DNA of 64,000 nt from Calvatia gigantea (taxonomy: Eukaryota; Basidiomycota; Agaricomycetes; Agaricales; Lycoperdaceae), in contig JACAAK010000004.1 in NCBI GenBank assembly GCA_025093985.1, positions 1,364,001 to 1,428,000 on the forward strand, given 5' to 3'. This document shows, one piece after another, positions 2,141 to 36,954 of the stretch; the first letter of the stretch is position 1, and every line of letters starts with the position of its first letter. The notes under the pieces were generated by a model, which was not told the origin of the DNA, made no database searches, and saw nothing but the letters and a program-made list of their open reading frames with translations. Both the position numbers and the translations under genes were made by a program.

Positions 2141-2144
2141 AGGT

Positions 2145-13947: not shown

Positions 13948-14032
13948 TCCACTGGCATGTTACCTTGTTCTCTCAGGTTGCTTATGGCCTGAGGCCATTC
14001 ACTTCTATTGCCCGCCTGTGTAAAGAGGCGGT
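13948..14032 (+). mobile_element. LINE-B, left fragment
   Basis: This is the 5'-truncated start of a plus-strand LINE (end of the RNase H coding region, near LRPFTSIARLCKEA). It is inserted in LINE-2 with the 17-bp target duplication AATGAGGTAACATACTG (13931-13947 and 33513-33529). It breaks off at GCGGT (14028-14032) and resumes at 32360 with GCGGT, which is the target duplication of element C. Confidence 0.85.
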
Positions 14033-14823
14033 AAAGAGGCAGAAATAGAAATACTAAATGTGATATGGATGTTCGGCTTAGATTAAGCTGACAGAATAGA
14101 TTTTTAAAGATTTCTGCACAAGGCAAGTTCGTGGGGAGGCAATCTGACAATATGAGGGACAATTCCACAAAATAACGCGAATCAACGACGCGTGGAGAAC
14201 ACTAGAATAGCTAACTACCTTCGCTAAGAAGAGTAAAGCCAAGTTACACTGTAAAAAGTGCGACTCGTGTCCTTTATCCAAGAAGTTAACAAGACACAGA
14301 ACCTCAGGTACTCCCTAAGCTTCACCCTTATCAAGTTAACGACCAGAAGCGCACTGTCCTACACTTGTGATACGCCAAGTACCAGGGTGTAGCGATGCAA
14401 TACGCTCTTAATCTAAGCTCACTTCACGAGTAAGCCCGAGGTCTTCTTCTTAGATCAAAAGGTCTCAATCCTAGCTCAAGTCACTTAGTCTAGTTAATCT
14501 CGAAAGAACTTATTACTTTGCTTCACTCAGGCACAATAGATCGCTTTTCACTGCGCTCTGAAGGCTGGGCAATGGCTAGTAGGTTCCTTGCCACGTCCGA
14601 CACCTCAGAGGGGGTTTATATATTATTTGGGTGCTCGTTATGACAAGACAATGATTACACAACTAGGAACATATTATCAAGCAAGGTACAAACCGGTAGA
14701 TTAGATCGCGCGCCAAGAGAGCCGCAACCTGTTAGATTAGTGAAACATTGGAAATACAGAAGGATTCTGGGTATCCGTTTGTTCCGGGCTATGTTTTAGC
14801 CTGTTCTCTGGGTCTGCATTCTT
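14033..14823 (-). repeat. Probable remainder of the element C 3' LTR
   Basis: These 791 bases lie between the target duplication and the part of the LTR repeated at 31845. They share the recurring TTAGATTA/TAATCTAA 8-mer (14078, 14409, 14732). The simplest reading is an LTR of about 1.3 kb whose matching part in the other LTR is lost in the scrambled block. I found no copy of it in the window. The left end lacks a clear TG; TGTGATATGG at 14059 is a possible terminus, leaving 26 unexplained bases. No gene seen. Confidence 0.45.
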
Positions 14824-15338
14824 CTCTAAATATGTAGAACATCTAAGATTTCGGATGTCGCGTGAACTGTTCTCCTACGTGTCCCCGTAGATTGTATGCG
14901 AACGCGTCCATACGTGTCATTAGTGCTGAGTGATGTTCGTTAATCTAACAACGGTGGCATTTCCTTGTGAACACGCTGATCAGCCTTTTAGATTAAGCAC
15001 GTCGGACTTATTTCTCGAGTCTAGACTCATTGGAGGGGTCCCGTAGCTCTGTATAGATGCATTGGAATGGTTTTACCGCCTGGTCCGGCCAGAATCACGA
15101 CTGGTCATATGGTACACTGTTAGAATTGCTTTTTGTTAAGCACAGTGGTCATCCCGTAGCCGCTGCTATCCGTCATCAATGGTCATAGTGTTCTACAGTG
15201 ATCGAGTACTCTTTTATTATACTGTTGGGCTCTTAGATTAGGTCGTACTACTACAGGAAGGTTCGATGCAATCGTTAGATTAGGCTTGTATGCCTTAGAT
15301 TAGCGATTTTCATGTGTGAAAACGGCTTTGCCGTTACA
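14824..15338 (-). repeat. Element C LTR, 515-bp repeated part (3' LTR on minus strand)
   Basis: It matches 31845-32359 without gaps. I see seven differences, every one at a CpG site. On the minus strand it starts TGTAACGGCAAAGCCGTT, a small hairpin. It contains five copies of TTAGATTA/TAATCTAA (14941, 14988, 15233, 15275, 15295). Confidence 0.85.
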
Positions 15339-15350
15339 TCTCCCCCTCAC
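15339..15350 (-). promoter_or_regulatory. Polypurine tract of element C
   Basis: Read on the minus strand, GTGAGGGGGAGA directly abuts the LTR start TGTAACGG. This is where a plus-strand-priming polypurine tract is expected and it fixes the LTR boundary and element orientation. Confidence 0.8.
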
Positions 15351-15789
15351 TATAGATGACTGCCCTCAGTCCTCCGTTAAGTCTGACATGATCATTAAGC
15401 AACAACTTTGCTTTCTCTCTGTTTGCTGATCTTTAAGCGTGCACAGAAGCGCCGGGCTCAATCAACTAGAAGTATTTTTATGCTTCACAGTGAAGTCTTC
15501 GAGGGATGATCTGATTTCACCCTCTTCGACGTCGAGTTCTCCTTTCGGTAACCCTATCGCCGTTAGCGGCTAATGCTTCTCGCAGCTGATATCCGCTGTT
15601 GCTATCTTAAGCCTTTCATGGCTGCCTGTTATTCTAAACATTTTTATATGTTTTGTGTGTATCTTAGATACATTCCTCTCGCTAAGTACGATACCGGGTT
15701 GTAGAACCTCGCTCATCTGTTTTGGACCGTGAGATTAAGAACCCGGCCTTATCACGTTGCGTTAGCTTAACCTTCCCTCGATCGTGCGG

Positions 15790-15796
15790 TATATAA
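15790..15796 (+). promoter_or_regulatory. TATA box of antisense gene 1
   Basis: TATATAA lies about 50 bases before the ATG at 15844, followed by a pyrimidine-rich stretch. This supports independent plus-strand transcription of the antisense module. Confidence 0.55.
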
Positions 15797-15843
15797 GAAC
15801 GGCACACGTTTTTTCTTCCTAGTTTCATACATCTATCATCGTT

Positions 15844-18066
15844 ATGGCTGCCCCGCACGATTCCAACGCAAATCTGGTCACTCCGGCCTCCATTCGCAAC
15901 AGTCTGGTGGCTCGTGGATTCGAAGGAGAGGAGTTGGAGAACCGAGTTGCAGAAATGGTGGACATGCTGTGTCCAGGGTGGACGGGTACGCCCCTTTTTT
16001 CTTCTCTGGTGTTCAGTGTGCTAATCTCCGCCTCTAATCTCAGGCGGACCACTACGAGCACCCATGCCACTTATCCGGCCAACGCTCTCATTTATCGCGC
16101 CGGCCCCCACCGTTGGTCTCCAACAGAACGAAACATTTACGTTCCCTCCCGTTCAGACCTCCTTCGATGCTCCCGGGCCTTCGCTTAGGCCACAGCCCGT
16201 TATCTACCACCCAGGAACCGGTGCCCGTATTCCTCCAGGCATGCAGGCCGTGACGCTACTGCCAACACCTATTGGTACTTTTCTTTTTTTTACTCTATCT
16301 TGTTATTCCTGAGCTGACTTGTGATCTCAGCTGCAACTCAGTCATTGCCGTCTTCTTCTAAGCCAAAGAAGTCCCGGAAACGTGCCGGGAAGGCACGTCA
16401 TTCATCTACTTTTAACTGTATTTCTTGTTTGACCATTTATCTAACAGAACCTTGATGTTCCGACCCCAATTTCGGCAGGTCCGTCTGCCTCTACTGACCC
16501 TCCAACGTCTTCCATGGCGACGGGAGGATCTATTGCAACCAGCCGGCCTTCGCGCATAGCTGCTCCCAAGACTCCCGGTGCCCTTGTCGACGTAAGTCAT
16601 TTGATTTATGACCGTTTTTATCTTAATCTAATTTCATTCATCTAGCCCGCGGCCGCTCGTCTTGCCTTGTTGGCCACTCAGGCAAAGGCACAGGCTCGGA
16701 CTCGTCAATGAGCTACAAACGCGTCACTGGATGACGCCCCACCCAAGAAACGTGCTCGCGAGGCCGTCACGTCGGCCAGGAAGACTCTCACCGCTCCTGC
16801 CCTCTCCGCGTCGTCGTCTGTCTCTACGACGAATTCCTCCAAACCGAAACCTCGCCGGGTGATCCTGAAGATCCCCGTCAGGGAAGAGACAGTAACTGCC
16901 CTCCCCGAGGCCCTTCCGGAGACAATCCGTCCCGCTTCTTCGCCGGTGGGAGAGATTGACGTCGAGGAGGTTGAAGAACCCCCCAGGAACGTTCCGGAGC
17001 CTGCAGAGCCCCGAACCCGTCATCTCCGTAAGTCTCTTTTCGTCAAATCTTGTCTTTCTTTGCTAATCTAACAGGTGCTGCTCGTCGTACGGACGAGGAC
17101 CTCGTTGAGGAGTGCGGCTTGAAGGTGGCCGCCTCCTTCTTTTCTGACGTTGGGCCAGCGTTCTCGCTGCTCAACGCTGAGCCTTATGTGAGTGTTTTTC
17201 ATACAAGGTACACCTTAATCTAACACTTTTCTAGGGCAGCGCTGGACAGCTTCAGTGCCTAAACTGCATGAAGCTGTTCTCACCTGACTGCACTCCCGGT
17301 GGCAAGGACCAGGATGGCAAAACTCGCAAGTGCAAGCAATGCCTTGCCCAGAATGCCGCCCACTGTTCGGATACCAAGCCGGCACCTCTCCTTCAGTACC
17401 AGGCTGAAGGTGCTCGACTTCGCTCCCTGACCAGCGACCACTGTAAGTCATTTTTATTCTCTTATCTACATAAGTGGTTATGTTGGCTGACCAACACTAT
17501 TTCTTGTTAATCTAGACCTCGCCGACCGATTCCGGAACCTGACGGCGGCCCACGCTCAAGTTTTCGGGCTCGAAACTTTCCTGGACATGGCTTATGCGAA
17601 CTACCATGCCCTCGTCTACTCGTTTGTGAAGGACATCCAGATCGCGTGTCAACTTCACGGTCGCGAGTCCTCCTTCTGGGTTGAGTCCGGGCTCTGCAAG
17701 ACCCAAAGCGACGCCTCTGACCTGTTCGCCTTCGTCGACGGATTCCTCGACGAAGTCCATGCTTCGGAAGATCCCGATCTCGCTCGCCGGTCTTACTTCG
17801 CTCACGGCCGTTTCCTCAACGTGCTGTCTGGTTTGCGCGGGGAGGCACCCAGGACATGGCCTGGCATGCCTCCTACCCCGTCCTTCGCTTCGAAACACGC
17901 CGACTTCACCGATCCCCCCGTCCCTCGTGTCAAGAAGGCCCGCTCCGCCAAATCTAAGGGGAAACAGCGAGCAGCATCGCCCTCTCCTTCCTCGAGCCTG
18001 CCTATCAGCGAGGAGGAGTTCAATTCCGGGGACGACGTGGCGGCGTCTTCTGATTACGAATCCTGA
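15844..18066 (+). CDS. Antisense gene 1: Cys-cluster protein with basic NLS-like motifs, one TGA
   Basis: I do not recognise the family. Eight exons are predicted: 15844-15985, 16044-16274, 16331-16396, 16479-16591, 16646-17027, 17075-17187, 17235-17442, 17516-18066. They total 1,806 bases and stay in frame to the TGA at 18064. All introns are GT-AG; the 16479 acceptor is the least sure. One in-frame TGA at 16709-16711 probably replaces CGA, so this copy may be dead. The product (~601 aa) has basic motifs KPKKSRKRAGK and PPKKRAREA, a Cys/His cluster in exon 7 (C-x2-C, C, C-x2-C, H-C) and a Ser-rich acidic tail. It lies tail-on toward the minus-strand pol, inside the LTR element. Suggested role: nuclear DNA- or chromatin-associated protein (inference). 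Confidence 0.7.
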
Positions 18067-18724
18067 GGTTCGTGCGGCGTTTTTTCTTGTCATATCTCGA
18101 GAGTCTTCGGAGTAGATACATTACCGTAGTAGTGTATTCCGCTCCCCCAACATCTTGCTAGGTATCTAGGTACATCCTACTTAGATATATGTTTTTTCTT
18201 TAGTCTTTCTGCATCTTTGGGTGATACCCTGGATGCTCAATTCAATCTGCTTGTGCGCGTTTTTGTGTGAATCCATAAATCTTAAATTTTTCCAGAAGTA
18301 AGTGTGTGGATTCGCCAAAATTTTGTACCATTGCACATATATTGCACGTCTAGTCAAATCTAAGTCTCTGCAGTACACACTCCCCCCCACTAAAACGGAC
18401 GGGTGCCCTCACCCTTATGCTATCCATTTCAGAGACGTGTGAGAGGTGTCGCTATGGTATGACCTATTTCAAATCTCGGCGACTTTTTGCAATTTCAAAA
18501 CGTCGCGGCTCTCATCGTTCAAAATTCGCCAAAAGCAGCCGAATTTTTCATTCTTATCTTACACAGGTTTTTCCGCTAATCTCAAGGTCTTTTTCACCGG
18601 CAGTTTGTGCCGTATTTCTAGATAGACCCTTTTTTGATGTAGCTACATATAATCTAAACACAGGGAACTTGTACCTCAGTTCTCCTTGCTGTATATCTCG
18701 CTAGGATCTCTTGTCATTCTCTTC
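18067..18724. other. Spacer between antisense genes 1 and 2
   Basis: There is no gene. It holds the presumed 3' end of gene 1 and the promoter of gene 2. A TATA-like ACATATAAT lies at about 18645 and overlaps one TAATCTAA motif (18650). Small open frames here have no coding character. Confidence 0.5.
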
Positions 18725-20063
18725 ATGTCTGCTGATACTGTTAACGCTCGTATTGAGCTAGACGATGCGATTAGTACCTTCCAGCACCGATTGCAACGTT
18801 TTCAGCATCAGGAGAGCACACAGGCTTCCATATTTAATGCTTTGAACGACGCTACTGCCCCAGCCGTAAGTCTTAGATTAGCACCTTCGACCATTGTTGT
18901 CGACAGCTAACATGTCTATCCTTTCAGTCTCAGTTCCTTCGTCAACTTTCAGGCGATGCTGCTGGTTTAGAAGACGAGAAGAACGTTAATCTCGTTTTCC
19001 GCGCTCGCAAGATCTTTGAGACCTGGCAGAATGAACATGACAAGGCTTTCAAGATGCTAGAAGTCTACAAGAAACTTCAAGACTTCTGTGCTCAGTACCA
19101 GCGCTCCAAAGCTAAAGCTAAGTCAAGTTCATCTGGACCAGCAAGCCCTGCCGCAACTCCCGCGTCTACGACGACTACTACTGGCTCAGGTCCTCCGACC
19201 AAAAAAGTGCGCAAAATCTTTAATCTAAGTCGATCCGTTGTTATCTCAATAATGTCCGCTAGCGTCGTCGCAGTAAGCAAGTCATTTCGCCCGAGACCGT
19301 TGACGACTCTGACAAAGAGGAGACATCGAGGACCGTAAGTTATTCTGATATCTCCTATTGCCTTAATCTAACATTGTTTTCGCCACAGGAGACCATGCAA
19401 GTTGATGATTCTGGCCCTCCAGGAACAGCCGTATCCCCTGATGACGACCGAACCAGTAGCACCATGGTGCTCGAGCCTCAAATCGTCACTACCGCTGTTA
19501 ACCAGGTGAATCATTCTTTCTCCTGTCGCCGCAGCACATCGTTCTCAGCTGTGGTTCGTCTTGCTTTCTTCATTAATCTTGGTTAGCTATTGCTAAGACT
19601 CATTAATCTACGCTTGCAGGAGACAGCTGTGGCTGATACTCGTGCTGAGACGGTGTGTATACCTTATGCCTTTGTGCCTGGCTTAGATATCAGCAGTAGC
19701 GCTTATAAGCGAGCCATACAGCTTACTACCGGTGCGAAGCATGTTCATTTTTCGCCTTCCACTCCGGAACAAGGTCAGCTTTTCAGAACACCTTAGTGCG
19801 TCCTAGCTGATAACCAAATTCCATAAGTTGTGGCTCTAGCAAAGGTCATTGAGCCGTTGACTCTCAAGAATCGCGAGCTCTATGCTCACTATGTCACTTG
19901 TTGCGAGAGCGCCGTGCTTCAGACTGGTCTCCTTGGTACCAGCTCCGAGTTAATCTCAGCAGCCCAGGCATTGGAAGCCGCTGCTCGCCGCTATGAAGTC
20001 TTAGCTAAACAGCAGGAACATCTCTTTGTTCAGTTAGAGAAGTTATCCGGCCATTCTGCTTAG
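18725..20063 (+). CDS. Antisense gene 2: intact six-exon protein, unknown
   Basis: I do not recognise it. Exons 18725-18865, 18928-19206, 19263-19334, 19389-19505, 19620-19773 and 19828-20063 sum to 999 bases and encode 332 aa with no stop; every intron is GT-AG. The N-terminal half is helical and heptad-like (LDDAISTFQHRLQRFQ, then VYKKLQDFCAQYQRSKAKAK). A Ser/Thr/Pro linker leads to a basic cluster (TKK joined to RRRSK across an intron), then an acidic region and a C-terminal helix (EKLSGHSA). It ends 116 bases before the end of pol, tail to tail. It could be a nuclear coiled-coil partner of gene 1 (inference). That it stays open while pol is broken is notable. Confidence 0.75.
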
Positions 20064-20179
20064 ATTACCTCTAGCATTCTTCAATCACCCATTTTTACTT
20101 AGATAGTTTTTACCCTCAGTTTGTACGCGTTCACGCAAACAGAGTTTTCTATCTTATGATGAAATTCGGTGTGATCGCG

Positions 20180-21501
20180 TCAGTTCTCGATGTCTGAGTC
20201 TGTTAGCTTTGCCTCTGACTCATCTTCCATGATTAATCTATCCAAACTGTCCTTAGATAGATCAATTAAATGTTCGATTTTCTCGTCCAGTGTTAGCTTA
20301 GACCATGCTAAGTAAGGTATTACTCTAAAAGCTGCGACCTTATTTTGCCACACGGATCCGTCCAGTTCTGCTAAGATATACGCGCCACCTTTAAGTCGCT
20401 GAATCACTACCATAGGTCCTAGATACCTTGGCTTCATTTTGCGATCCGCTGACATTTGTATGGCTGAATTCTTAACTAAGACTAACGATCCCGGCTTTAG
20501 GTCAAAGTCTTTTATCTTATATTTCATTTCTTCTTCTAGTTTTAAAGCCCTATTTAACTTTTCGTTAGATAGATGTTTTTGCATTTCATCTATGTGGTCT
20601 ACGTGTTTAGCTAAGGCCAGTGCTCGTAGACCGATAAGTTCTTCTGTAGATAGGAAACGTTCTGGGTATTTAACTAACCAGGTTGCTTCTATTATATCTA
20701 ATGGTAACGTTGGGTGCGCTCCCGTTGCCATGAAGTAAGGCGAACATCCCGTACCCTTTCTTATTGTTATTCTATCAGCCCACATTACATGGTGGAGATA
20801 CCAGTACCATTTTCTGACATTGCCATTTGTGGCCTTATACAGCATTTGTCTAACATCCCAGTGGGGTCTTTCTATTGTCCCGTTAGCTTGTGAGTTGTAG
20901 GGAGAGATAGTGACTCCTTTAATCCCATACTTCTCAGCTAACCAGCCAACTGCTTTCTTAAATGGCGAGCCATTATCCGTGACAATCTTCACAAGACTTC
21001 CCCATCTGCAGACGATATCTTCGAAAAGCCATTGTCCGATAGACTTGGCGTTCTCTTTTCTTAAGGCTCTGGCTTCCATCCAGGATGAAAGTCCACATCG
21101 GCCGTGGACAATATAACTACAACTGTTTGACGGCGGAGTCATACTGTATGTATTGTATCTGCATGTAAGATTTGGAAAAGCAACGGAGTATGCGTCACTA
21201 CCGGTGGCAATTCTAATGCCATCTTCTGTCTAACCTGACACAGGTGACATGTCTTCACATACCATGCTATGTCGCCCTCCATTTCTGGCCACCAGAACCT
21301 CTGAGCTATGAGCTTTGTGGTCGCGTACGCTCCTCTGTGCCCTAGCTTATCATGACAAGTTTTCATAATTCTCATCCGATGTTCTTTAGCTAAGACGAGT
21401 GCAGGGTTTCCACCACTCGCAGACTTCCTGTATAAGCGACCGTCGTCGTCTAGCCAAAAGTGTGAGGCAGCCCTCACAAATTTAGCTTGATCGGCGTCCA
21501 T
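20180..21501 (-). pseudogene. pol: Element C integrase
   Basis: The H2C2 zinc-binding domain is at the right (CHDKLGHRGAYATTK, then CHLCQ). The catalytic core has ILHADTIH (first Asp), IVTDNGSPF (second Asp) and [12 protein letters not shown] (Glu). A C-terminal tail follows with [12 protein letters not shown] and a long acidic end. Integrase would join element cDNA to the genome with 5-bp staggering, matching the GCGGT duplication. A small frameshift near 21140 separates the first Asp from the rest; otherwise the protein is well preserved. Confidence 0.9.
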
Positions 21502-22935
21502 TTTACTGATGTCAAATCCTTTCGGGTCGTTAGCTAACCATTCCCGGATTCGACTGAGTCATTTATCTTGTATTTTTGCTGTCTCCGGCCTCCGGTCTTC
21601 ATTATAGGGTGCCAGTTCTTCGTCGTCAGGTTCTTTATCTAAGTTTTCTGACTCTAAGGTAGCGACCCTATCTAAGAAAGCGCGGAGCAACTCAGGATAT
21701 TTTTCCTGGTTAGCTATCATGCGTCTGGTCTTTATGTCTTGTTGGGTAGATTCCTTAGCGTTATCTAAGTCGTTTTGGAAGTCTACCAACAGGCTCATTA
21801 CTTGCTGCGTATAGCCTGTTCGATTATCTATTTCTTCGTAGAATTCTTCTAAATCTAATGGGTCTTCGTCTTCCGGGTTAGCCTTAGATAGAATAAAGTC
21901 ATCCCCGTCGTCCTCAGATCCATCGTCAAAGGCACGTTCTACTGGGTCCCCTGGGCACCAAGGTCTTCTCGAGAGTCCGTCAGGCCCAAAGGCCTTACCT
22001 TTCTTATGTACAAGTTCGAAATGAAAGTTTGTCCGTATATAATCTACCCAGCGATTTATCGTCACGTTAGGCAGTCTTCCGGGGTTGTTCAACATTCCAA
22101 ACAAATACTTAGCATCTGTCTCAACAATTAGATTTCGACAACCAGTCAATAGATAAGTCTCTTCTTCTAAGACCATTCTTAGACCGCACAATTCTCGCTT
22201 AGGTTGTGAATATCTCTGTTGTCGTTCGTCCATAAGCAAAGAGTTAAACTTCACATAATGGATTATCTTACGATCTTCCTCGTCTCTTTGATAGAGATAA
22301 TATCCTACTGCTCTCCAGGACGAGTCAACCGATAGGACTATGGGCTGAGTGCTTGGAAATTTCGGATTTCTAGTATGAAAGCAGTTTTTAATTGCTTCCT
22401 TTAGATTATCTTGGGCTGTCTGCTGTTCAGGTCCCCATTCGAATGCTATATGCATCTTGCACACATTATATAACGGTGCAGCGATTATCACAAAGTTCGG
22501 AATGTGATTCCTACATCTAACGGCTGTCCCCAAGAAAGATCTGGTCTCTGAAGCGTCCTTACAAGCGCCCCATCGTAATATAACACCGATGGCGTCTGCT
22601 GTCGGTTTTCTTCCTTTATATGAGCAGTCAAATCCTACAATAGTTATATGATCTGCACATATTGTTGTCTTTGGCCCGGAAAAGGTGCCTCCCGCATATT
22701 TCATTCATTGTAATATGCGGTTCACCATGTTCATATGTTCCCATATGAATCGCCTAATGCCCGGGTTCCCTTCTATAACCTCGTAATCACCATTAGATAA
22801 CTCGTGGTAGGTGTCCCCTGGCATGTCATTGGGGACTGTATCGAATTTATCGACAATATTGAGGAATTGAAGAAGGTACGAATTGTCCACCATAGGCACG
22901 TTACTATCTAGGCTCCGATGGTTTTGGGAAGTCAT
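21502..22935 (-). pseudogene. pol: Element C RT thumb and RNase H
   Basis: The first part holds the end of the RT palm (EVIEGNPGIRRFIWEHMN). It then continues with MKYAGGTFSG, GFDCSYKGRKP and FLGTAVRCRNHIPNF. RNase H shows IVLSVDSSWRAVGYYLYQ (Asp), PKRELCGLRMVLEE (Glu) and LIVETDAKYLFGM (Asp). It runs in frame into the integrase region. The frame is cut by TGA just before MKYAGG (about 22703) and again near 21557; both sit where CGA (Arg) is expected. The right end (about 22830-22935) degenerates into the indel-rich block. Confidence 0.85.
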
Positions 22936-23407
22936 TAATTCTAGTCGCCCGCCTTGAAGACATAAACATAGTGGAGCAAGGCTCCTGGAGGCTCTATTCT
23001 TGTTACGGGCGGCGCCGAAGCGCGATGATATTAGGTCTAGCTTGACAGTCGACCTTCTTTCTTAGTACCAAACTATTTACTTAGAGAATTGAGGGCTCAA
23101 TACCGCTCTATTTTCTTTTGTGCACAGTCGTAAATCGCGGGAACCGAATGCTTCCGGTATATGGGAATATGGGATCTTTCGGAGGAAAACTTCTTAAATG
23201 CCCTTGTATTAGCAACTTATGTTACTGCGTTACCTTACTTCGCAACCAGGCCCGGATCGTCTCCACTCAGGGAGAGGTTCAACGCTATAGCCCAGGAGTA
23301 TTTGACAAGTCTCAATGACTTCTGTGCAGGCTTCGGATTGCTCCCTCGAGTAGAAGCTCGCGCTTGCCTGAGAAGTCCGAGTTAAGTGTCACTGCAGTCC
23401 CCAAGGT
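22830..23407 (-). other. Indel-rich second copy of RT sequence, then accessory ORF end
   Basis: 22830-23210 is recognisably the same RT sequence as 23840-24290 but with many 1-2 base deletions. 23211-23407 is instead a CpG-rich copy of the family-1 ORF end (PLRERFNAIAQEYL) seen at 1950-2140. This may be raw-read-quality sequence at a mis-joined contig edge rather than biology. Confidence 0.55.
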
Positions 23408-23830
23408 TGTTAGCCTTGTAGCAGACGAGCGAAGATAAGGAAGCTTGTTACTAGAATAACCTACAGTAATACAAAGTAGTACTTAAGGTTTATATACTAG
23501 CTACGAATAAGAGATGAGAGATTACGTAGTAAGTAGATATGAGTCAATGAGAACTACTACGGGTTAATTGGTAATCTAAGGAATCATAGGGATAGGTGAA
23601 ATGAATAGAAGAACGAGTACGAGTCATAAGAAGACGGAGTCAGGTAAAGAGAAGCACAATGGTGGAAAAGATGAAGGTGAAACAGAAACATGACTCAGAA
23701 TGAATCATAAGAAGCAAAGGTAGAAGTACATGTGATAAATAAATAAAGAACGGACCGCGGTATACAGAAGGGAAGAATGGAAAGTCTGTACGGAAGGTTA
23801 ATACGGTAATGTCGTCATGAAAGATAGGTA
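23408..23830 (+). repeat. Gypsy LTR (family 1), CpG-rich copy
   Basis: It begins TGTTAGCCTTGTAGCAGACG and corresponds to 2145-2582, where CpGs are replaced by TpG or CpA. It sits inside the RT domain of element C. No clean target duplication is visible because the left flank is in the indel-rich block. Confidence 0.6.
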
Positions 23831-24488
23831 CTGAATTAGTCCATCCCATAGGCAACGTTACTAATCTAAGGGCTCCGAATGGTGTTTGGAAAGTCATTAG
23901 ATCTCTAGACGACTCAGCCAACTGCCTTTCGTCATACCCTACATATAAATCTAATATGCCGCTACAAGCCCTTCCTGAGAAGTGCATAGCTAATTCTTCT
24001 GTTGCGGGCGGCAGACCCGAATGCGCGATTGTCACTCTATTTAGAGGCTCTAAGCTATGTACTAGTCTGAGACTCTTTCCGTCTTTCTTAAGTACACAAA
24101 ACCATTTAGATCTATAAGACGAATTCGAGGGCTCATATACCCCTGCGTCTATTTTTCTTTTGATGATTCTACACACTTCGTCATATATCGCTGGGGGAAT
24201 CCTGAAATGTCTTTCTACCCATGGTATATGGGCAATAGTGGGGATCTCTATCGGAGGGAAAAACTCCTCCTTAAATTTGCCCCTTTCAGTATCATCCCAA
24301 GCGAACGCTTTATTGTGTTCTGCAATTAACCAATGCATTAGCTTTTGCTCCTCGTAAGTCAAGAAGTCCCCAATATGAGCTGCGTCCATCTTGTTTTTCC
24401 GTTCTTCGGTATACCTGCCTTTAGATTTGAAAGTTGGCGGGTTAACCGGCAGGATTGGCAGCTCAGTCAAGGGATCTCCAATTATCTC
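23815..24488 (-). pseudogene. pol: Element C reverse transcriptase, fingers and palm
   Basis: Reading leftward: PWVERHFRIPPAIYDEV, FCVLKKDGKSLRLVHSLEPLN, then LDLYVGYDER (active-site motif A) and TPFGALRLVTLPMGWTNS. The frame is lost at about 23815 where the LTR sequence begins, so the YIDD box is missing here. A TGA near 24485 separates it from the upstream linker where CGA is expected. It is clearly Ty3/gypsy of the Agaricomycete type. Confidence 0.85.
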
Positions 24489-24869
24489 TCATTTTATTCT
24501 GTATTTGTCTGGTAGTTCTCCCAGTACGGGTCTCACTTTCAATGCGACTGGTTTATATTTCTTAGCTAAACAAAGAATATGTTCCTCCTCTGTAGGTGGT
24601 CCATAGATTTCGTCTAACGCTGTCACTCTTTGAATAACTCTGCTGGGACTTACAATCTGAGATAAGAACGTAGTAAGTAGTTCTTTATCGCGAGACCGCT
24701 GCGTCGCTAAACTCTTCTGTAAGTATATTAGATTAACTTCGTCGGAGGTCATAGATTTTACATCAACTGCCAACGTTTCACTAATATATGGTTTATTCTC
24801 ATTATCTAAGCTAATTATAAGAGCAACCTCTCCTTCGATGCCTTTTTCGAAGTCATCGAGGCTACTCAA
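24489..24869 (-). pseudogene. pol: Element C protease-RT linker
   Basis: This 126-codon open segment lies between protease and RT. It is acidic and helical, ending in KYKPVALKVRPVLGELPDKYR, which leads into the RT N-terminus. It is joined to the protease by a one-base frameshift at about 24868. Confidence 0.7.
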
Positions 24870-25141
24870 AAATTTTGCTCTTTAATTCGCGGTAATTGGC
24901 CTTTAGCGTAAGTAGGCAACGTTGCTCTATTCTTTGTATTGGGATCGGTAATGACTATCATTTGCGCTCCTTCAGCAGAATTCACCACTCGACTTTCTGT
25001 TAGGACGTCGAAAGGTCTGCCTAATAATATTGAGTATGGTGGACTGTCGACTACATGGACCTGTAGATAGACCGTCACATCTCCGAAGCTAAACGGCACA
25101 TTCTTAGCTAGACCACAAGTCTGGCTTACAGTAAGGGACAA
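24866..25141 (-). pseudogene. pol: Element C protease, C-terminal part
   Basis: PYSILLGRPFDVLTESRVVN is the hallmark of the end of a retroviral-type aspartic protease. The catalytic Asp-Ser/Thr-Gly is missing because a mariner terminal repeat begins at 25129, after the target TA at 25127-25128. Confidence 0.8.
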
Positions 25142-25338
25142 AACCGTTCCAATGTTTTGAACTTCTCAGAAGATCAGCTCATATCTCAAGGACTACTGTG
25201 GCTGTGCACTTCCTAATTTAATTGTAGATAGTCCAGTATCTTATCTAATCATATGCAAAGTATGATTATGTAATCCTTTGTTTTAGGGGAGTTATTAATT
25301 AATTAATATTTTAAGTGCATTGGAACAGTTTTGTCCTC
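25129..25338 (+). mobile_element. Tc1/mariner terminal repeat fragment in protease
   Basis: Starting CAGTAAGGGAC after TA, this 210-base block appears the same as the end of the complete mariner at 41742. It covers the whole terminal repeat and stops there. The rest of a mariner reappears in indel-rich form at about 27130-28364. Confidence 0.85.
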
Positions 25339-28300
25339 TTATTACGCTGAAAGTGACCAGGATTTGCTAGGATTCTAGAAGAAGGAGAAGTCTGGCTAAA
25401 TTGAACCCGTGCATACGGAACGCCGATGAAAATCGTCAACTTAATCAATGGCGAAGGTCTCGGAGTCAGGGAAGTTCCAGGAAAGCGCTATCTTTTCGTT
25501 CGGTGGATAGCTTCTAGATGTGAACTTGGCGGTTAACCGTGGATGATTACTCCGGGATCTAAGGATTTGGTTTTGTGTTGCTGTGGGGGTTTCGGAGAGC
25601 GGCGCAGATGGGGGGACTGCGTTATTGTGGCGAAACTAGCTAAGAATTTGTGACCCAGGTGGGGTCCGGGGTGTCGTTTGGCTCGGTGGGTACTTACTGG
25701 CTGGGCTAAGGGTGTGAAGGTTATTCGGGCGTGGTGCCTTGGGGAGTGGGTTGTCCTGCTCGCGTCTGGGATGCTGGCGGCGTTCGGGTTTAGCTGGTTT
25801 GATCATTCTCTGTAGGATGAATGGAACCTGTCTTGTCCCTTTTGTGAGGAGGGGCTACCTTGCGCTGGTTGATTCGGTGGGGCGAGGCACATCTGCTACT
25901 GTGATTCGACTCGAATTGTTATTCTGGTCGCGAATTTTGGAGCTCGTCTTGGTGCGCAAAGGCGTGCAATGGTTTTTAGGTATGGTAATTTGGGATCGGG
26001 GATTGGATAGGCACATCTGTAGGTGGGGGGTAATTATAGATGGAGTGGGACAGTAATGGACTTTTCTACGGGGAATTTGTATTTTTGGAATGGAGGTGAC
26101 CGAGGACTGGATGGGGCACTGCTTTTAATTTTGCTTAGCTTCTTTAAAATATATAATGGTACATTGGTATTCATTTTTAAAGGAGTGAATACATCAAGTT
26201 GATGACTGGAATATTTATTCCTTTGAGGGTGGATTAGTCTGTTCAGCTCCCATTCCCCTGTAAGCATTGCTGAGTGCATATGATACCAAGAGTTTCTTGC
26301 TAGACCTTGTAATGGTAATTCCTTTGTATCCTCTCTATAGGAATTCAAGATCCTGATTCTATATTCTCCACTGTCTTGACGAGCAGCGTGAGTTGATCCA
26401 AGGGATTATTTCGAGGAAGAAAGGGTGATGGAACGTTCTGCCTTTCCTTTTCTCTAGTTGTCTGGTCGACTGGTAGCTTTTTGAAGGACGCTTCAGACTT
26501 CGTCGATCTTTTAGTTATGCGCATTTGACATCCGTTCAAGCCATCTTTCCTTCTGGTCTAGGGTTCAATTTTGCTTTATTCGTTTCATCGATCATCCTGT
26601 TCTTGAGCAACAATTGCTTTCTCTCAGTCTCAGTACTTCGTTTTCATTGCTGAAGCCTGCTTTCCATTCACGGATTCAGGTTTTGCTCCGCCTATTCGTA
26701 ATGGGTTTCTTCCGTCCATGTCTTAGTTTGGGCATTTGTCTTTCTACGAACCAGAGAGGGAGTTTCCGATGCTAGATTCGTACGGCTTTGGCCATGCAAT
26801 CGTTCTTGTCAGTTGGGGTAGCTGTGAAATGTTGGGACTTCGAGTTTTCAGCCTGCTGAGGCGCCAAGAACCTAGTGTCAGCAGGGAGAGAGTTCTGGGT
26901 TACCAACTGTTTGGACTGTCTATTATGTGGGAATTCCTGGATATCCCTTCACAGAACAGAATGCCTTGTAGCAGATTCCCTAAGCCCGTTGAATCAGGAC
27001 TTCATTTGGCTCCTTCAGGATTACCACTCGACTTTCTGTAGGAGTGAAAGGTCTCCTATATTTGAGTTGGTGGACGGGATATGGACTGTAGATGCCGTCA
27101 CGTCGAAGCTAAACGGATAACTTAGTAGGCAAGCTGGTTGAAGGAAACTGTTCCATTTTTAGAATTGAGGAGATGACTAACGAGGAGTGGCTCAATCCTA
27201 ATTTAATTGTATGTCATATCTAGCTAAGCATATGCAAGTATCGGTTTTAGCATTGCTTTAAGAGATGAGAATTGGAAATCTAGTCATTGGACTTTTAGGT
27301 CCCCGGGAATGTATAAGTGGTATTTCCGTATACCTTGGCCTGAAAATGCTGGACCCTCCAAGGCATTCTCTATCAGATTTGTAACACTTCGTTAGTATTC
27401 CCCTCTTTTGATCCTATCGCATAGGGTTCATGCTTCAGATTTCATCTCTCTATAGCAGAGTGGAGTGAGTTTCCAAGGGATTGTCGTAGACTCGGGGGAA
27501 GGCTAGCCCAATTTGACTCTTCCCGTTTAGAGCCTTTTCTGTGTTGAGGGGCATGCTTTGGAAGCATACGTCCTAACTTCGTCATCTTGTCATTGAATAG
27601 TCCCCCAAAATCGTCAAACCACTTTTTCCTGGCAGGTTTATGAACCCCATTCGTCCCCAGCATCACCCATATTCACATTGCCTCCAAATTCTGTTCCCTC
27701 AACATTATCATTCGCCTTCTCCTGGCATTTTCCATTCCTCAAATCACTGATCCACGTTATTCGGACTATTTCCAAAGGCTCTTCCAGTCTGAGTGTCAGT
27801 AACATGTGTTTCCACTCCAACCTTCTCCAGGAGAGAATTTAGTCGTTAGTGACTACGGCCTTATTTCCGCGAAGTGCCTTCGCTTTCGGTGGTACAGGCT
27901 GGCAATAAATTTGGAGTGATTGGTAGTTGGAGATTAGCGAGTGTGGAATGGGGACACAGTGGGATATCAAGTGTAGTCAATCGGGGAACAGTTGAAGTGT
28001 GCAATCTTTGGACTAATCCTGTAAAGATGAGATTCCCCCTTGAAGTAACATGATCACAATTCCCTGGCCGAATTGAGTGACCTTGGTCTATGGAAGATGA
28101 GTATCAGTCATAGGATATGGGGAGGTCTTTGCACCTGCTGCATCGTTACAACGTAAGGACACATGGTTATTTTGATTTTGATTGCTAACTAACGTACTTC
28201 GATGAAGGTATAAATTGGCCAATACTTAAATATGAATAATAAAACTCGCTAAAGGGGTTATCAATCGACTTGTGTTAGTGAAGTGCTAGTTCATATTGGG

Positions 28301-31300
28301 AATGACCTTCGTGTCTTGATGCTGCTCTGAAAGTAAACTATTGGAGTTTTGCCTTACTGTATCTGAGATTGTTCATCTTCAAGCGTTTGGATCCATGAAC
28401 TCAGTGTCCCTATATGGAATGGATCATTGTGAACATTCCAGAAGCTCTTCTTCCCTGGATCTCCAGGTGAATATTAAGCATACTGTCACGTTAGAGTCAT
28501 CTGATCTAAGTGAATTGGCTTGGCTTATTTTGGTTCGGGATGTAAATGTCGAATAGGATGTAATGATACATTCATCGGATGCTTCAGTGAATTTTGGGTT
28601 TCTCAATGGTTCCTGGATAGTACGTTGTAAGCAATGTGGCTCCGTTTCCGAATCCATTCTTCTATCGTTTATGCAAGAGTTGTGTTATTCTGTTTTCATT
28701 GGTACGTTGTATTTCTGGATGGGATAGGGCCTTCATTCTTTGTGATAAGAGAGCTCCAATGCTATTTTGAGGCATTCACAAACGTTTTTTTGGTGGCTAG
28801 CAGACGGTCTTTTGCATCGTTTTTCAGGTAAGGCTCTTTCTATCGGCCATGGAATTCTTTTTTTGGTAAATCGTTAACTGTGGAATCGTGGTGATTATGA
28901 TCTTTGGATTACATTAGATCCTCATTTTACGACATCCGGGCGTTGTGTAGGCGCCTTCTCTTCCAGGGGTTTGGTTTACCGTTCGTCTAGAGGGGGCTGA
29001 TTCTATGAGGTTTCTTATGGGTTTACAAAGTCCATTTTAGTACAGGTTAGATCGCAGATGCTTCTTGCAGGACTAGTGTAACATCATTTCTTCTGTTTGC
29101 TAGACAGATGCATGTTAATTATAATTTTTATCTAGCTTATGCGAAATGTGTCCTATTTTATGTGGCTAGGGCTTACTTAAAATGCCATTCTCGTAAATTC
29201 ATGGTCATTGAATGCCTAATCCATGGTCTTCGACCTCTCTGCTATCGGTTGATGCCTTTAATCAATAGGGTGCTTTGAATTTGCCATAATGCTGATCGTA
29301 AATGGTACGTGTGTGGTGTATTAGGGTAGTGATCTTCGCGGCCGAAGTTTCCCGTCTTCGGGCCAGGTCATGAGGATGACGCCACGAGTTGGTGTGGTCG
29401 ATTCCTGGGTGTGGTGCTTATCGGCCAAGCTTAAATATTGAGGGGTCCCCAGGGGACGTTTGGGTCTTCGGTAAAGTTTCTGGTGCTTTATGGACGTTGC
29501 TAGACCGTGAATGTTGGTTTTCTGTCGGAGGGCTAAATTTTTCTTGGCATGTCCTAGCGCTCCAAGGGTGTTTTCTGTGCTTTAGCTGAGCTATCTCTCT
29601 GGATTTGGTTTGTGATTTGAGCTTTGCTTGAGTCTCCACTCGCTTATCATCATGTTTCACATAGGTTGGCCTGGGTCTCTTCTGGTGGCCATTGGTAATC
29701 CTAGAGCTTTAAGTAAGTGGGTGTTGTTCATTAGGTAGTGTACGTTCGGATTCTTCTGATGCTAGGATTTCTTCATTTTTGTTTGGGATTTTGTAAGGCT
29801 AAGAGCTTCGTCGTCACACATTTAATGGTTAAGTATCCATTTAAAACTAGAAAAAAAAAATTAACATGGTATCCTAAGCTTGTCTTTGGCTCCATCTACT
29901 CACTAATTGACATGTTTCCAAATTAGTGTTCCTAAGCTTTCTCATGTATTACATTTATTACCTCCATTATATTTTGATCTTTGATAGCTGTGAGTCAAAG
30001 TTATAAAGTTCGAGGATATTAGTTTGGCTCGATGCATACGGTGATGGGTTTTGTAGGTTGGATTAGGTGGAGGTTGTGTTTTGTGTTTGAGAGGAGTTTT
30101 TTAGAGTTGTCGGGTACCAAGGTTTCCCTTCATACGAATCACTAAATCCACAGTTAGTCGTTGAACATTGCAAGCATCTCTGTACAGGTTTGCGCCTGGG
30201 AGTTCTCTAACAAACTTGAATCTGCTATCTTTGGTTTGATTTCTCCACCGTAATCTGACTTTGGTTTTGAGATTGTCTATCGGGGGATGCTGAACTCTTT
30301 TTGGCGATGGGCTCCTGGAGGTGAGTTGATGTTAGGGCAGGATTTGGAAGATTGTTTCTGGAAATTCCCCTGCCTGCATTCCCATGAGGCAAGTGCTAAG
30401 TGAATGGAGTTTAGGTAATTAGGGCAGCAAGTCTTCTTTATTTGTATTAAATTGGGGAGTAATTGACAACAAGGAATTCAGGGTTTGAGCAATACGACTC
30501 AGTAAAGTTCAAGATGAAATTTACTAAAATCAAGAGCACGTTCACCAAGAGTGGTCAGGCCGTTAGCAACGAGGAAATTAAAACCTGGTCCTAGCTTACA
30601 ATAGCGACCCTGCCTACCTTAGATCGGGCCTATCTTTTGTGAGCATGCTACCTAATCAATGCAGCCCGTGAATGTCGATAATGCCTTAGTAAAGTCCTCA
30701 AGTGCAAGCACTTGGAATTCCAATTAAAGCCTTACCATTTTCGCTAATCGTATCCTTTCCGTGCAGTAGATCCGATGGGTAGTTTCAAGCTCACTTCAAT
30801 CTAGAAGGTAGTATCCCAAGGGACGGCTTTCCAGCACGGGAACGCTTTTTAAATTGTTCAACCGGAAAGCCTCCTGCCAGAGGAGCGACCCACTGTCGGT
30901 TGTCACCTCGGACTCAGGCTGATTCGGATACTTTTCACAGAGGCCAAAGCTGTAACCCGGGTTTGTCCCTCAATTCGGAGCTTTTGCCGATTCTTTGAAT
31001 TTCCATGTTTCCTCAATTGAATGGCGAGTAGAGTCTCGTCACCTCGTCTTTGTCCTGGAGAAGAGGTGGGTTAAGAACCTGGTGGATTTCTGAACAGGGG
31101 GGGAGGGAAGGGCAGCTCTCCTTTCACCTTAGGGAGGATCTTTCAGGTACTTAGTCGTCCATTCCGAATGGGTTGGCCCTATCGGGGTGGGGTGGTTGGT
31201 CGTGGTTCTTAATGTTTCTTTGAATTGAGGGGTACCCGACCGTCGTTCTGGATCAATTGGTCATTATTTCTACACTGGATATAGGGTATTAAGGGTGCTG

Positions 31301-31844
31301 GGTGTAAAATGGGTTCTTCTCATAGGTGATGTAGAGGTAGATGGAGTTGTGAACTGATAGCGTTTTGCTTGATGCTTAAGGACACGGGAAGATGGTTTTT
31401 GTCCGAATTGGAAGGGTACGCTCTGGATGGGTCGTGAGTGACTCTTAGGGGCTCTTGTCGGGCGAAGGTCGAAATGTCGAATTCCACTTTGTCTGGTTTT
31501 CTGGTTCAGGGCTCTGGATCTTTAGTAGGGCCTGGATGTCTTAATGTCGTTTGGTCTAGTGCGGGGATATGATAATCCTTTCTAATGGATAGCGAACATG
31601 TGGTCACTGAGTTGCTTCACGAGGAGTAGTAGGGCTCAAGATGTTGGGTTGTTAACTTCAATGACTTTGGAGAAGAAGTTAAGGACGTTTCCCATTTCGC
31701 AACTGTGAAGAAAGAAGATGGGATGCAGGCCCGCCTCTAGCTACTTGGCGGGGCAATAATTCGCCTAGTGGTGGAGTTCATTTCTAACCCATCGGGCCAA
31801 GGTCTCATTCACTGGCGGTGGGCTCGTCGTGGAGCTGGCTAAGA
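25339..31844. other. Indel-scrambled interior of element C
   Basis: There is no credible gene. 26950-27130 repeats the protease region 24930-25128 with many small indels. 27130-28364 repeats a whole mariner in the same noisy way and ends with TTTTGCCTTACTGTA. The remainder (28364-31844) occupies the place of gag and the 5' leader on the minus strand, but only short open frames exist. It keeps CpGs. Either old sequence eroded by small indels or unpolished long-read assembly. Confidence 0.55.
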
Positions 31845-32359
31845 CTCTAAATATGTAGAACATCTAAGATTTCGGATGTCGCGTGAACTGTTCTCCTATG
31901 TGTCCCCGTAGATTGTACGCGAACGCGTCCATACGTGTCATTAGTGCTGAGTGATGTTCGTTAATCTAACAACGGTGGCATTTCCTTGTGAACACGCTGA
32001 TCAGCCTTTTAGATTAAGCACATCGGACTTATTTCTCGAGTCTAGACTCATTGGAGGGGTCCCGTAGCTCTGTATAGACGCATTGGAATGGTTTTACCGC
32101 CTGGTCCGGCCGGAATCACGACTGGTCATATGGTACACTGTTAGAATTGCTTTTTGTTAAGCACAGTGGTCATCCCGTAGCCGCCGCTATCCGTCATCAA
32201 TGGTCATAGTGTTCTACAGTGATCGAGTACTCTTTTATTATACTGTTGGGCTCTTAGATTAGGTCGTACTACTACAGGAAGGTTCGATGCAATCGTTAGA
32301 TTAGGCTTGTATGCCTTAGATTAGCGATTTTCATGCGTGAAAACGGCTTTGCCGTTACA
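31845..32359 (-). repeat. Element C LTR, 515-bp repeated part (5' LTR on minus strand)
   Basis: This is the partner of 14824-15338 at an offset of 17,021 bases with no gap. Its right end TGTAACGGC abuts the GCGGT target copy and LINE-B, which fixes the outer edge of element C. Confidence 0.85.
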
Positions 32360-33483
32360 GCGGTCGACGATGTTCTGGAGTCATGGCATCAGCTGTACTC
32401 TACCTCTTCTTACAAGGGGCGTAGCAATATAGATCTCGCCTCTGGGGCGGATCTGTCTATTCTGGGGAAGCCGACCTACCTTTCTGGTGGGCCCTGGCTC
32501 CCTCATGTTAGCAGCTCTAACTCATTATGTGCGAGGGCCATGCATGCCGTCACAGGCCATGCTCCGATTGGGTTGTACCGTGTATGATTCTTTCCTAATG
32601 AAAGCATTAGCTGTTCATGTGGTGCCACTCTCGAGGGGCGCTATCACATATTCGTCAGGTGTCCCAACCACAAGAGGGAACTTGACAGACCTCCTCAGAC
32701 CATTCGGGAGCTGATTGACTTCCTGAATACAAACCCAGGTGCTTTTGTGTTCAGACCAGATAATGCTGGGATCGGTTGAGCTGGCGCACATGGGGGGTCC
32801 CTGCGGTATTGCTGGTCTTCTGGCCTACTGGGTGGGGAAGTTGTAAGGCAACAAGGGTGGGGTCCCTGGGGGGTGCTTCCAGTCTTGGCTGGTGGTGCTC
32901 CTTTCCTGGGCCTGGCTGGGGGCTTCACGGGGGGTGAAGGCATAAAATAACAGGGGTGGGGTCCCTGGGTGGCAGTGCGGGTTCGTCCTGCTCAGCTGCT
33001 TTCTTGGGCACTGTCTAGGCAGCGCTTCGAGTTGTTACCCTGCCTGCTGGGTCACCCTAGGTCAGGACTGGGCTGATACCCTTTTATCTGGAAAGTTGGG
33101 GGTAAGGCGGCTCCAAGTGGGGGCTCCTTGCGCTGGCTCTCCTGACTACACCTGTCCCCCTGAGGGCACTTGGCCGCTGCTACTGCTGAGTTCACCTCTT
33201 GAGGGATGATCAGGGCACTGTCACAACGTGATGGTGCGCCACTGGGTGTACACCACAAGACCTGGGCAACTGGGTCTTCTTCAGTGTGATGGGCATTTCG
33301 GGCAACCGGGGGATTTGGCAAGTAGGGGGCGGTCTGGTCTGGTCTGGGCTAATACTTGGATTGGGTTGGGTTGTCACTGAACAGTAGATTACTCTTAACT
33401 CATCGGACTTTGTAGTTAGGGGATTTGTACTCTGCTACACACGGACTGTGATCAGGCACCGTGTTATAAATTGGCGCAAGCCT

Positions 33484-33512
<29 letters not shown>
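32360..33512 (+). mobile_element. LINE-B, right part with A-tail
   Basis: It continues the RNase H/zinc-knuckle frame broken at 14032. Visible are YLSGGPWLPHVSSSNSLCARAM, the knuckle region near 32610-32660, and PQTIRELIDFLNTNPGAF. The 3' UTR follows, with an A-tail at about 33490-33512 and the target duplication AATGAGGTAACATACTG. A TGA near 32585 and a frameshift break the C-terminus. Confidence 0.85.
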
Positions 33513-35794: not shown

Positions 35795-36094
35795 TGTTAG
35801 AATAAAACAGGGACGTCGTAGAGGTCACCTGAGTAGCGCTGATGGGCTTAGTGCAGGTATTGGGATAACCAAAGGCCATTGTATAAGAGGTGTAACTCGA
35901 CAAGGAGAATCCTTGTCAAGTAGCTAACTATATACAACATCAAAGTTTACTACAAAGTTTGGTATGAAACAGATGACATAGCGTGACATCATACATATGT
36001 CATACATGATGTCAGTGGAGTAATGATGTCATAGATGACGTCATTGATGAGAAGGGCCATAACTCCAAAATCGTCCAATTACCCACTTCTAACA
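35795..36094 (+). repeat. Solo LTR, 300 bp
   Basis: Its ends TGTTAGAA and TTCTAACA are perfect 8-base inverted repeats. It is flanked by CTATC (35790-35794 and 36095-36099), a 5-bp target duplication in the LINE-3 zinc-knuckle coding region. The left part includes a palindrome (TCGACAAGGAGAATCCTTGT) and the right part repeated TGACGTCA-like words. A second copy, split by mariner, is at 41639-43545. Confidence 0.9.
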
Positions 36095-36954
36095 CTATCA
36101 CATATTCATCAGGTGCCCTAACCACAAGAGGGGGCTTGACAGACCTCCTCAGACCATTCGTAAGCTGATTGACTTTCTGAATGCGAATCCGGGGGCATTT
36201 GTGTTCAGACCAGATGATGCTGGGATCGGCTGAGCTGGCACGTGTGGGGGGCTCCTGTAGGGTTGCTGGTCTTCTGGCCTACTGGATGGAGAAGTCATAA
36301 GGCAACAGGGGTAGGGTCTCTGGGGGGTGCTTCCGGCCTCAGTTGGTGGTGCTCCTTTCCTGGGCCTGGTTGGAGACTTCATGCAGGGCAAAGGCATAAA
36401 ATAATGGGGGTGGGGTCCCCAGGTGGCGGTGTGGGTCCATCCTGCTCAGCTGCTTTCTTGGGTGCTGTCTAGGTGACGCTTCGAGTTACTACCCTGCCTG
36501 TTGGGTTGTTCTGGATTGGGACTGGGCTAATATCCTTTCGTCTGGGAAATTGGGAGTAAGGCGGCTCCAAGTGGGGGGTCCTTGCGCTAGCTCTCCTGAC
36601 TACACCTGTCTCCTCTCGGGTGCTTGGCCGCCGTCGCTGCTGGGCCTGCTGCTTGTGAGATGATCAGGCTCAGCCATGGTGTGTCATTGGGTGTACACTA
36701 CAAGACCTGGGCAACTGGGTCTTCTTCAGTGTGATGGGCATTTCGGGAAACCGAGGGGCTTATAAGTAGGGAGTGGTCTGGTTTAGTTTGGGTGGGTGAC
36801 TGCTTGGGCTGGATTGGGCTGCTCATGAATGTAGTTTACTTTCAACTCATTGAACTTTGTAGTTGGGGCTTTGTACTTGGCTACATGCAGACTGTGATCG
36901 GGCACCACATTATAAATTGGTGCAAGCCATGATTTAAAAAAAAAAAAAAAAAAA

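Follow-up and report, generated by a model that had tools for sequence, protein, structure and literature searches.

The window analysed here, a stretch of 64,000 nucleotides of Calvatia gigantea DNA, contains a degenerate member of a Ty3/gypsy retrotransposon family of ~14.15 kb, whose internal region almost certainly has two spliced protein-coding genes that lie antisense to gag-pol and adjoin the 3' LTR. The gene pair belongs to the retrotransposon family, and the family's own DNA, namely the LTRs, the introns and intergenic DNA of the two-gene module and the gag-pol coding sequence, is enriched in the octamer TTAGATTA or its core TTAGAT. This element-wide enrichment is new in the present analysis. 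The explanation that seems best to us, with a probability of about two in five, combines the family anatomy with a motif-directed self-recognition by the two predicted proteins.

The element part of the window spans 14032–25128 and comprises, in order, the 3' LTR, the polypurine tract, two plus-strand genes and a minus-strand integrase-reverse transcriptase (RT)-protease region. The minus-strand Ty3/gypsy pol described in the first-pass annotation was confirmed using the C45 copy, in which the coordinates of Pfam and PDB matches place protease, RT, RNase H and integrase in that order, and paired LTRs, a polypurine tract and a target duplication likewise agree with the Ty3/gypsy assignment. The 3' LTR (14032–15338, minus strand) is 1307 bp long and contains eight TTAGATTA sites, at 14078, 14409, 14732, 14941, 14988, 15233, 15275 and 15295. 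Adjoining it is the polypurine tract (15339–15350, minus strand), which appears as a pyrimidine run on the plus strand and was found in all 11 copies that have both LTR and module, with a single change in one. The minus-strand segment at 20180–22947 encodes the integrase (H2C2), RNase H and part of RT in a broken frame; comparison with the C45 copy indicates an insertion within pol at ~22948–23804, of which 23230–23750 is similar (81%) to window positions 1968–2487, and the remainder of RT and part of the protease follow at 23805–25128 (minus strand). Beyond 25128 the window sequence has no further homology to the C45 copy, and therefore gag is absent and 25129–31844 lies outside the element, so that the earlier view of 14033–32359 as a single element does not hold. 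The non-element DNA consists of a 214-bp repeat unit (25127–25340) and then 6.5 kb for which no other full-length match was found in the genome. At 31845–32359 (minus strand) lies a remnant of the 5' LTR, 515 of 1307 bp with five TTAGATTA sites; the LTRs and polypurine tract proposed at first are thus real, with the right LTR reduced to this fragment. The target duplication also exists, not as the GCGGT originally read but as GCGG (left copy 14028–14031, right copy 32360–32363), which is limited to 4 bp because the LTR itself begins with T.

Integration signatures were also seen elsewhere in the family. Identical 4-bp flanks, conforming to NCGN in every case, occur at 12 of the 18 LTR loci without an adjacent module; among the other six, four belong to longer elements as their 5' LTRs, one (L026) is one base off and one (L034) has no match. 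Two of the four, L030 and L024, agree with the flanks to the left of L010 and L011. The sequence TGGAGCCCACC, a putative tRNA primer-binding site, is located just inside the 5' LTR, as judged from the flanks.

Between integrase and the 3' LTR, the two plus-strand genes of eight and six exons were recovered as first drawn. In the splice model, gene 1 (15844–18066, plus strand; 608 codons) has exons at 15844–15985, 16044–16274, 16331–16417, 16479–16591, 16646–17027, 17075–17187, 17235–17442 and 17516–18066, with the one in-frame TGA already noticed in the window copy; exons 2–8 are free of internal stops and gaps in 3 of the 14 other aligned copies (L040, L042 and L043). The acceptor of intron 3 is uncertain, and a shorter alternative, whose last bases are the branch-like CTAACAG, disrupts the reading frame. 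The gene 1 protein has a Cys cluster, CX2CX7CX13CX2CX7C. Its exon-8 frame matched two metagenomic relatives, P0001 and P0002, the former of which is 51% identical, retains the second CX2CX7C and has an insert exactly at the position of intron 7, so that this alignment supports the intron position. The spliced protein had no match at E<=0.001 in a large protein set (best 8000 candidates by shared words) and no Pfam family at E<=1, and neither relative matched Pfam or NCBIfam. Exon 8 had no match in viral contigs or prokaryotic genome contigs, its profile had none in the PDB, and its structure model predicts only a generic helical bundle.

Gene 2 (18725–20063, plus strand) is open, as initially reported, but encodes 328 rather than 332 amino acids; its modelled exons lie at 18725–18865, 18928–19206, 19263–19334, 19389–19505, 19620–19773 and 19840–20063. 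The predicted protein contains the basic stretch PPTKKRRRSK and looks helical by eye. The spliced protein had no match at E<=0.001 in the large protein set, only sub-threshold matches in Pfam and none in NCBIfam. The basic stretches, Cys cluster and helical character pointed out earlier are therefore present, the last as modelled for gene 1 exon 8 and as judged by eye for gene 2. The intergenic region (18067–18724, plus strand), possibly the promoter of gene 2, contains at 18650 a TTAGATTA site (TAATCTAA) that is intact in all 13 alignable rows, the window row included.

The genes are retained in the majority of copies that share this pol. Gene 2 adjoins integrase at 15 of the 18 integrase loci found, with a spacing of 527–532 bp, where the number of loci is a lower bound (at least 18, as 125 of 875 candidates were scored) and C23:1424093 and C23:1434414 were taken together as one locus. 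The gene pair was absent from the two sister gypsy families sampled in the genome, and the integrase query had no match in viral contigs. Gene matches without a nearby integrase were seen at C1:1776104, C1:1778818, C19 and C23:2341064 in the part looked at. No clear host locus for either gene was recognized among the gene matches looked at, and, with no source found, the idea that the genes were captured from the host gains no support. The checks that the first-pass annotation named as potentially refuting, on other copies and on host loci, thus did not overturn its proposal. No long terminal repeats flanking the gene module itself were found.

Comparison of the copies indicates that both genes are under purifying selection, which is specific to the coding frame and also acts between subfamilies. 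At non-CpG sites, pooled omega was ~0.49 for gene 1 (seven copies) and ~0.40 for gene 2 (six copies), values from copies that are not independent because each was compared with the window copy, while wrong frames and intergenic pseudo-frames used as controls gave 0.81–2.05. Decay after insertion moves omega toward 1. For gene 1, L040–L043 were left out for too few non-CpG differences and L045, L051 and L053 as poorly alignable; for gene 2, the test covered exons 1–4, and L040–L043, L045, L048, L052 and L053 were left out. The splice donor GT is kept in most, not all, aligned copies for the nine introns checked, with AT in its place in seven of the nine, in one to five copies each. Recurrence in independent insertions and purifying selection together uphold the proposal of a transposon-borne accessory system made in the first-pass annotation.

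The octamer TTAGATTA occurs eight times per 1307-bp LTR, compared with 2734 sites in the 45.95-Mb genome, which is a ~103-fold enrichment. Paired sites number 344 genome-wide versus 14 for the reversed control, and nearly all of those among the ~100 places listed are in the family's LTR; one tandem expansion of the motif (G000:C5:13590-13743) was also seen among these places. The full octamer is densest in the LTR and the non-coding DNA of the module, with seven of the eight module sites in introns or intergenic DNA, and it is present in both orientations. Several of the intron copies overlap a branch-point-like CTAAC. In gag-pol, the core TTAGAT was the top hexamer of 1874 after synonymous shuffling (28 versus 5.2 expected), while the integrase had no excess (1 versus 0.7 expected). 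The motif is also conserved, at 52 of 56 sites in divergent LTR copies versus 76% on average for control octamers, and at 48 of 51 in the module, among rows retained by a filter on coverage and identity, versus 418 of 740 for controls, although both tests count related copies as independent. Three sister-family stretches tested (1714, 2339 and 2357 bp) lack TTAGATTA.

These patterns would be explained if the proteins of gene 1 and gene 2 enter the nucleus, as the basic stretches of both and the Cys cluster of gene 1 suggest, and work as a pair that recognizes the element's own DNA, in a sequence-specific way, at its TTAGATTA sites. The pair might raise the transcription of the LTR and of its own genes, relieve silencing by host CpG methylation, or do both. 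The antisense placement would preserve the introns through the genomic RNA cycle, because there they are reversed and would not be spliced out. We rate the mechanism in this form, in which the binding of the proteins to the motif is inferred, slightly more tentatively than the overall explanation, and anti-silencing rather than plain transcriptional activation seems unlikely. Weighing against the mechanism are the lack of a Pfam family for gene 1 and of anything above threshold for gene 2, the generic fold of the exon-8 model, the overlap of intron sites with CTAAC, the missing TTAGAT excess in integrase and the CpG decay described below. The TTAGATTA motif nevertheless narrows the earlier idea of element regulation or counter-silencing to something more specific. 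The family provides a defined target sequence and two candidate proteins; some of its copies have an open gene 1, and sister families without the module can serve as controls in the same genome, and thus self-recognition by antisense genes is directly testable.

CpG decay was used as a proxy for methylation. It amounted to 14/134 CpG positions in the LTR, 38/368 in gene 1, 21/208 in gene 2 with the intergenic region, and 35/264 and 13/126 in pol; decay in the motif-rich LTR is about as high as elsewhere, and integrated copies are therefore not exempt from it. Decay is only slightly lower at CpGs that have a motif within 10 bp (18/242 versus 150/1276, p=0.057, with dependent sites treated as independent). 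Neither the LTR nor the motif neighbourhoods are clearly spared, and we make no claim of sparing near the motif. The integrase-RT part of pol had 46/2493 non-CpG differences, versus 0–7 in each of the other stretches.

It is conceivable, though rather doubtful, that TTAGATTA is the site of a host transcription factor driving the LTR, for example a homeodomain-type reader of TAATC/GATTA, and that the gene pair does something else. The peak of motif density in the LTR, the enrichment of TTAGAT in gag-pol coding DNA and the resemblance of homeodomain-like cores to TTAGATTA would all agree with such a factor. The near restriction of paired sites to the family's LTR among the ~100 places listed, however, and the lack of TTAGATTA in the sister-family stretches tested are harder to reconcile with a host factor, as is the presence of the motif within module introns and intergenic DNA, by which module and motif go together in the sample. 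That the proteins instead serve RNA export, packaging or particle assembly, like retroviral accessory proteins, with the DNA motif unrelated, appears improbable: judged by eye, the gene 2 protein is helical and has a basic stretch, while the Cys cluster of gene 1 could bind RNA, and the plant literature draws the comparison with retroviral accessory genes (PMC7264820, PMC11963269), but a motif in both orientations suits double-stranded DNA better than RNA, and in the sample of families module and motif occur in the same one.

Two further explanations are disfavoured. A plus-strand antisense transcript might pair with the genomic RNA to regulate the element, its coding capacity being incidental, and the module is indeed convergent with gag-pol, and for plant elements a role of antisense transcripts has been considered (PMC7264820); the frame-specific purifying selection, the retention of splice sites in most aligned copies and the 51% protein relative in a metagenome make this very improbable. 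Even harder to sustain is passive cargo, that is, host genes or a nested transposon hitchhiking in the element. The genes are as intron-rich as host genes and the sister families sampled lack them, but their position is constant at 15 of the 18 integrase loci found, no clear host source was recognized, the module has no flanking long terminal repeats and selection is maintained between subfamilies.

Most likely the module is a nuclear system by which the element recognizes itself, for regulation or anti-silencing, and which resembles Arabidopsis VANC and plant Retand elements by convergence. Retand-lineage gypsy elements (Grande gene23, RIRE2 and Retand) carry antisense aORFs with a TRP28 domain, for which nuclear and DNA-binding roles are proposed, while what antisense accessory genes do for gypsy elements is given as unknown (PMC7264820, PMC11963269). 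The present family likewise is Ty3/gypsy with antisense genes in a long pol-to-3' LTR region, but differs in its fungal host, its two genes of eight and six exons and its element-wide 8-bp motif; the passages on the plant elements mention tandem repeats and no such motif (PMC7264820, PMC11963269), and TRP28 (PF04195) had no Pfam match in gene 1 or gene 2. Fungal DNA transposons with a TET/JBP dioxygenase, thought to counter methylation or hypermutation (PMC12730594), are similar as fungal elements with extra gene content, and no Pfam match to that domain was found in gene 1, gene 2 or the C45 gag-pol frames. Among the open-access papers listed by the literature searches, no fungal gypsy element with intron-containing antisense genes or with a motif spread through the element came up, which is no proof of absence. 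VANDAL21/VANC21 of Arabidopsis has a short AT-rich motif that is dense in its own introns, intergenic and terminal DNA and rare elsewhere, and carries extra intron-bearing genes (PMC5735166, PMC10398659). The present family resembles it in both respects; however, VANDAL is a MULE DNA transposon, while the pol domains here are those of a retrotransposon, and its motif is mainly non-coding and in tandem arrays, whereas TTAGAT is also enriched in gag-pol. In VANC-type anti-silencing an element protein binds the motif and removes methylation; VANC binding is demonstrated, while the two proteins of the present family are candidates for such a role. A two-protein anti-silencing system that binds TTAGATTA throughout the element, gag-pol included, as a convergent analogue of VANC carried by an RNA-based element, is a rather speculative extension of this analogy. 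If self-recognition is true, sequence-specific recognition of this kind would have had separate origins in plants and in fungi, and in a DNA transposon and a retrotransposon.

The two-gene antisense module carried by this Ty3/gypsy family is genuine, recurrent and selected, and it places the family in the already known kind of gypsy elements with antisense aORFs. On the strand shown, the element reads 3' LTR, polypurine tract, gene 1 and gene 2, followed on the opposite strand by integrase, RNase H, RT, protease and gag, and then the 5' LTR. Full copies elsewhere in the assembly (G000; 46 Mb, 77 contigs) measure ~14.15 kb, as at G000:C45 ~2061831-2075979 and G000:C12 ~319311-333456. Pfam matching of the C45 copy located a DUF4100 stretch within pol; DUF4100 is associated with mushroom-type fungi, and together with the richness of the genes in introns it points to a basidiomycete, so that the host of the family is probably a fungus.

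The first-pass annotation had treated 14033-32359 as one LTR retrotransposon, and its ends were upheld but not its whole length, because 25129-31844 is other DNA. The left (3') LTR occupies 14032-15338 (1307 bp), only 515 bp of the right LTR survive (31845-32359), and this damaged copy can be aligned to the C45 copy at 14032-22947 and 23805-25128. The non-element DNA consists of a 214-bp repeat unit followed by 6.5 kb for which a search of the assembly gave no full-length match other than itself; 25340-31844 is T- and G-rich on the plus strand, has a largest ORF of ≤123 aa, and contains two short, deletion-rich patches similar to known repeats. An insertion in pol (23230-23750) is 81% similar to 1968-2487, and a LINE-like repeat with A-rich ends crowds the window in several copies roughly 73-89% alike (32360-33504, 36093-36955, 37736-38986, 45689-46935 and 59455-60657). 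When the best 40 of 433 candidates from the LTR search were scored, 46 matches were obtained, and the LTR-only matches mostly begin at query 128-133 and finish at 1437-1444. Identical tetramers flank 12 of 18 LTR loci without an adjoining module (among L021-L038), all 12 being NCGN, and integration seems to prefer this target; most of the 12 resemble solo LTRs. GCGG flanks the window copy at both ends, which supports a single insertion only mildly because, given the NCGN preference, a chance match is expected ~1 time in 16.

The 608 codons of gene 1 are spread over 8 exons and include one TGA in the window copy, and gene 2 comprises 6 exons encoding 328 aa. In 3 of 14 other aligned copies (L040, L042 and L043), exons 2-8 of gene 1 and exons 1-4 of gene 2 lack internal stops or gaps, and exon 1 of gene 1 is open in L012 and L010, which belong to two of the same elements. 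The proposed recurrence of the pair at a fixed place was borne out: among the best-scored candidates, the family has 18 integrase loci, and at 15 of them a gap of 527-532 bp separates the integrase match from the last exon of gene 2. The three exceptions are C5:550, at a contig end, C77:1583692, where gene 2 is ~15 kb off, and C56:2034448, where no gene 2 match was found beside the integrase. Some gene hits without integrase nearby look like fragments, and no clear host source was recognised among the best-scored, partly inspected candidates of genome searches with the two genes.

Differences between young copies are almost confined to CpG sites, and such sites were therefore left out of the selection test, in which the non-coding substitution spectrum supplied the neutral expectation for omega. 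At non-CpG sites gene 1 gave a pooled omega of 0.49 (7 copies) and gene 2 one of 0.40 (6 copies), below the values for wrong frames (0.92-2.05) and intergenic pseudo-frames (0.81-1.30); the dN/dS comparison between copies called for earlier thus shows purifying selection on both genes, and single-copy tests fell below 0.05 in 4/7 and 3/6 cases, respectively. Exon 8 of gene 1 matches two metagenomic proteins (51% and 47%). One of them, P0001, also covers the end of exon 7, retains the second half of the gene 1 Cys cluster, and carries a read-through insert exactly at the position of intron 7, which is an independent check on the predicted splice site.

CpG positions changed at ~10% in young copies (L010-L043) versus 0-1.8% of other positions, depending on the stretch, and all 7 differences between the window LTR pieces 14824-15338 and 31845-32359 are CpG transitions, pointing to either methylation decay or CpG-directed hypermutation as the probable cause in this genome. 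Decay in the LTR is about as strong as in other stretches of the element, which counts against long-term anti-silencing; it says only that integrated copies end up methylated or mutated, and does not bear on the active phase.

The octamer TTAGATTA, a family-specific DNA motif that is a new observation, is the most enriched in 14033-32359 (25 versus 3 in the remaining window). Each LTR of the C45 copy contains 8 (6.1 per kb); another 8 fall in its module stretches and 5 in gag-pol. The whole genome has 2734 sites (0.06 per kb; 1494 for the reversed control). Pairs 5-34 bp apart number 344 genome-wide versus 14 for the control, and almost all such places, among roughly 100 listed, are the same LTR segments. 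One LTR copy (G000:C5:13590-13743) has a 42-bp unit with TTAGATTA three times in tandem. Of the 8 sites in the window copy's module, 7 are intronic or intergenic and one overlaps the stop of gene 2. Under synonymous-codon shuffling, the core TTAGAT ranks first of 1874 hexamers in gag-pol (28 versus 5.2 expected), with 16 versus 2.2 in RT alone (matched by 0/500 shuffles), 7 versus 1.5 in protease and 4 versus 0.9 in gag; the same test found no excess in integrase. The sites are also conserved, being intact at 52/56 LTR positions in seven divergent copies (comparable control octamers, mean 76%) and at 48/51 module positions (controls, 418/740). Branch-point-like CTAAC overlaps some intron sites; sites 18650 (intergenic) and 18873 (5'-side intron) lie outside it, and each is intact in 13/13 alignable rows including the window. 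In sister family B, whose integrase is 45% identical, a 360-bp LTR stands within ~55 bp of pol and leaves no room for a module, and in a second sister set (L060 and L061; integrase 44-46%) shared sequence ends ~715 bp beyond integrase. Neither TTAGATTA nor TTAGAT occurs in three sister-family stretches (1714, 2339 and 2357 bp) covering 3' ends and part of pol.

An antisense, spliced gene pair under selection is thus accompanied, in the sampled data, by an element-wide motif. On the favored reading, the two products would be nuclear proteins that recognise TTAGATTA and act on transcription or chromatin of their own element, and lying antisense would allow both genes to retain introns during the RNA cycle. 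Such self-directed motif recognition is plausible but unproven. The YAGTATTAY motif of VANC21 is found within its own family in introns, between genes and in terminal DNA (PMC5735166), and to that extent the parallel with TTAGATTA is close. Unlike the VANC21 motif as described there, that of the gypsy family is also enriched in coding DNA and shows little tandem arrangement. The tandem 42-bp unit in the C5 LTR copy recalls the tandem growth of VANC targets.
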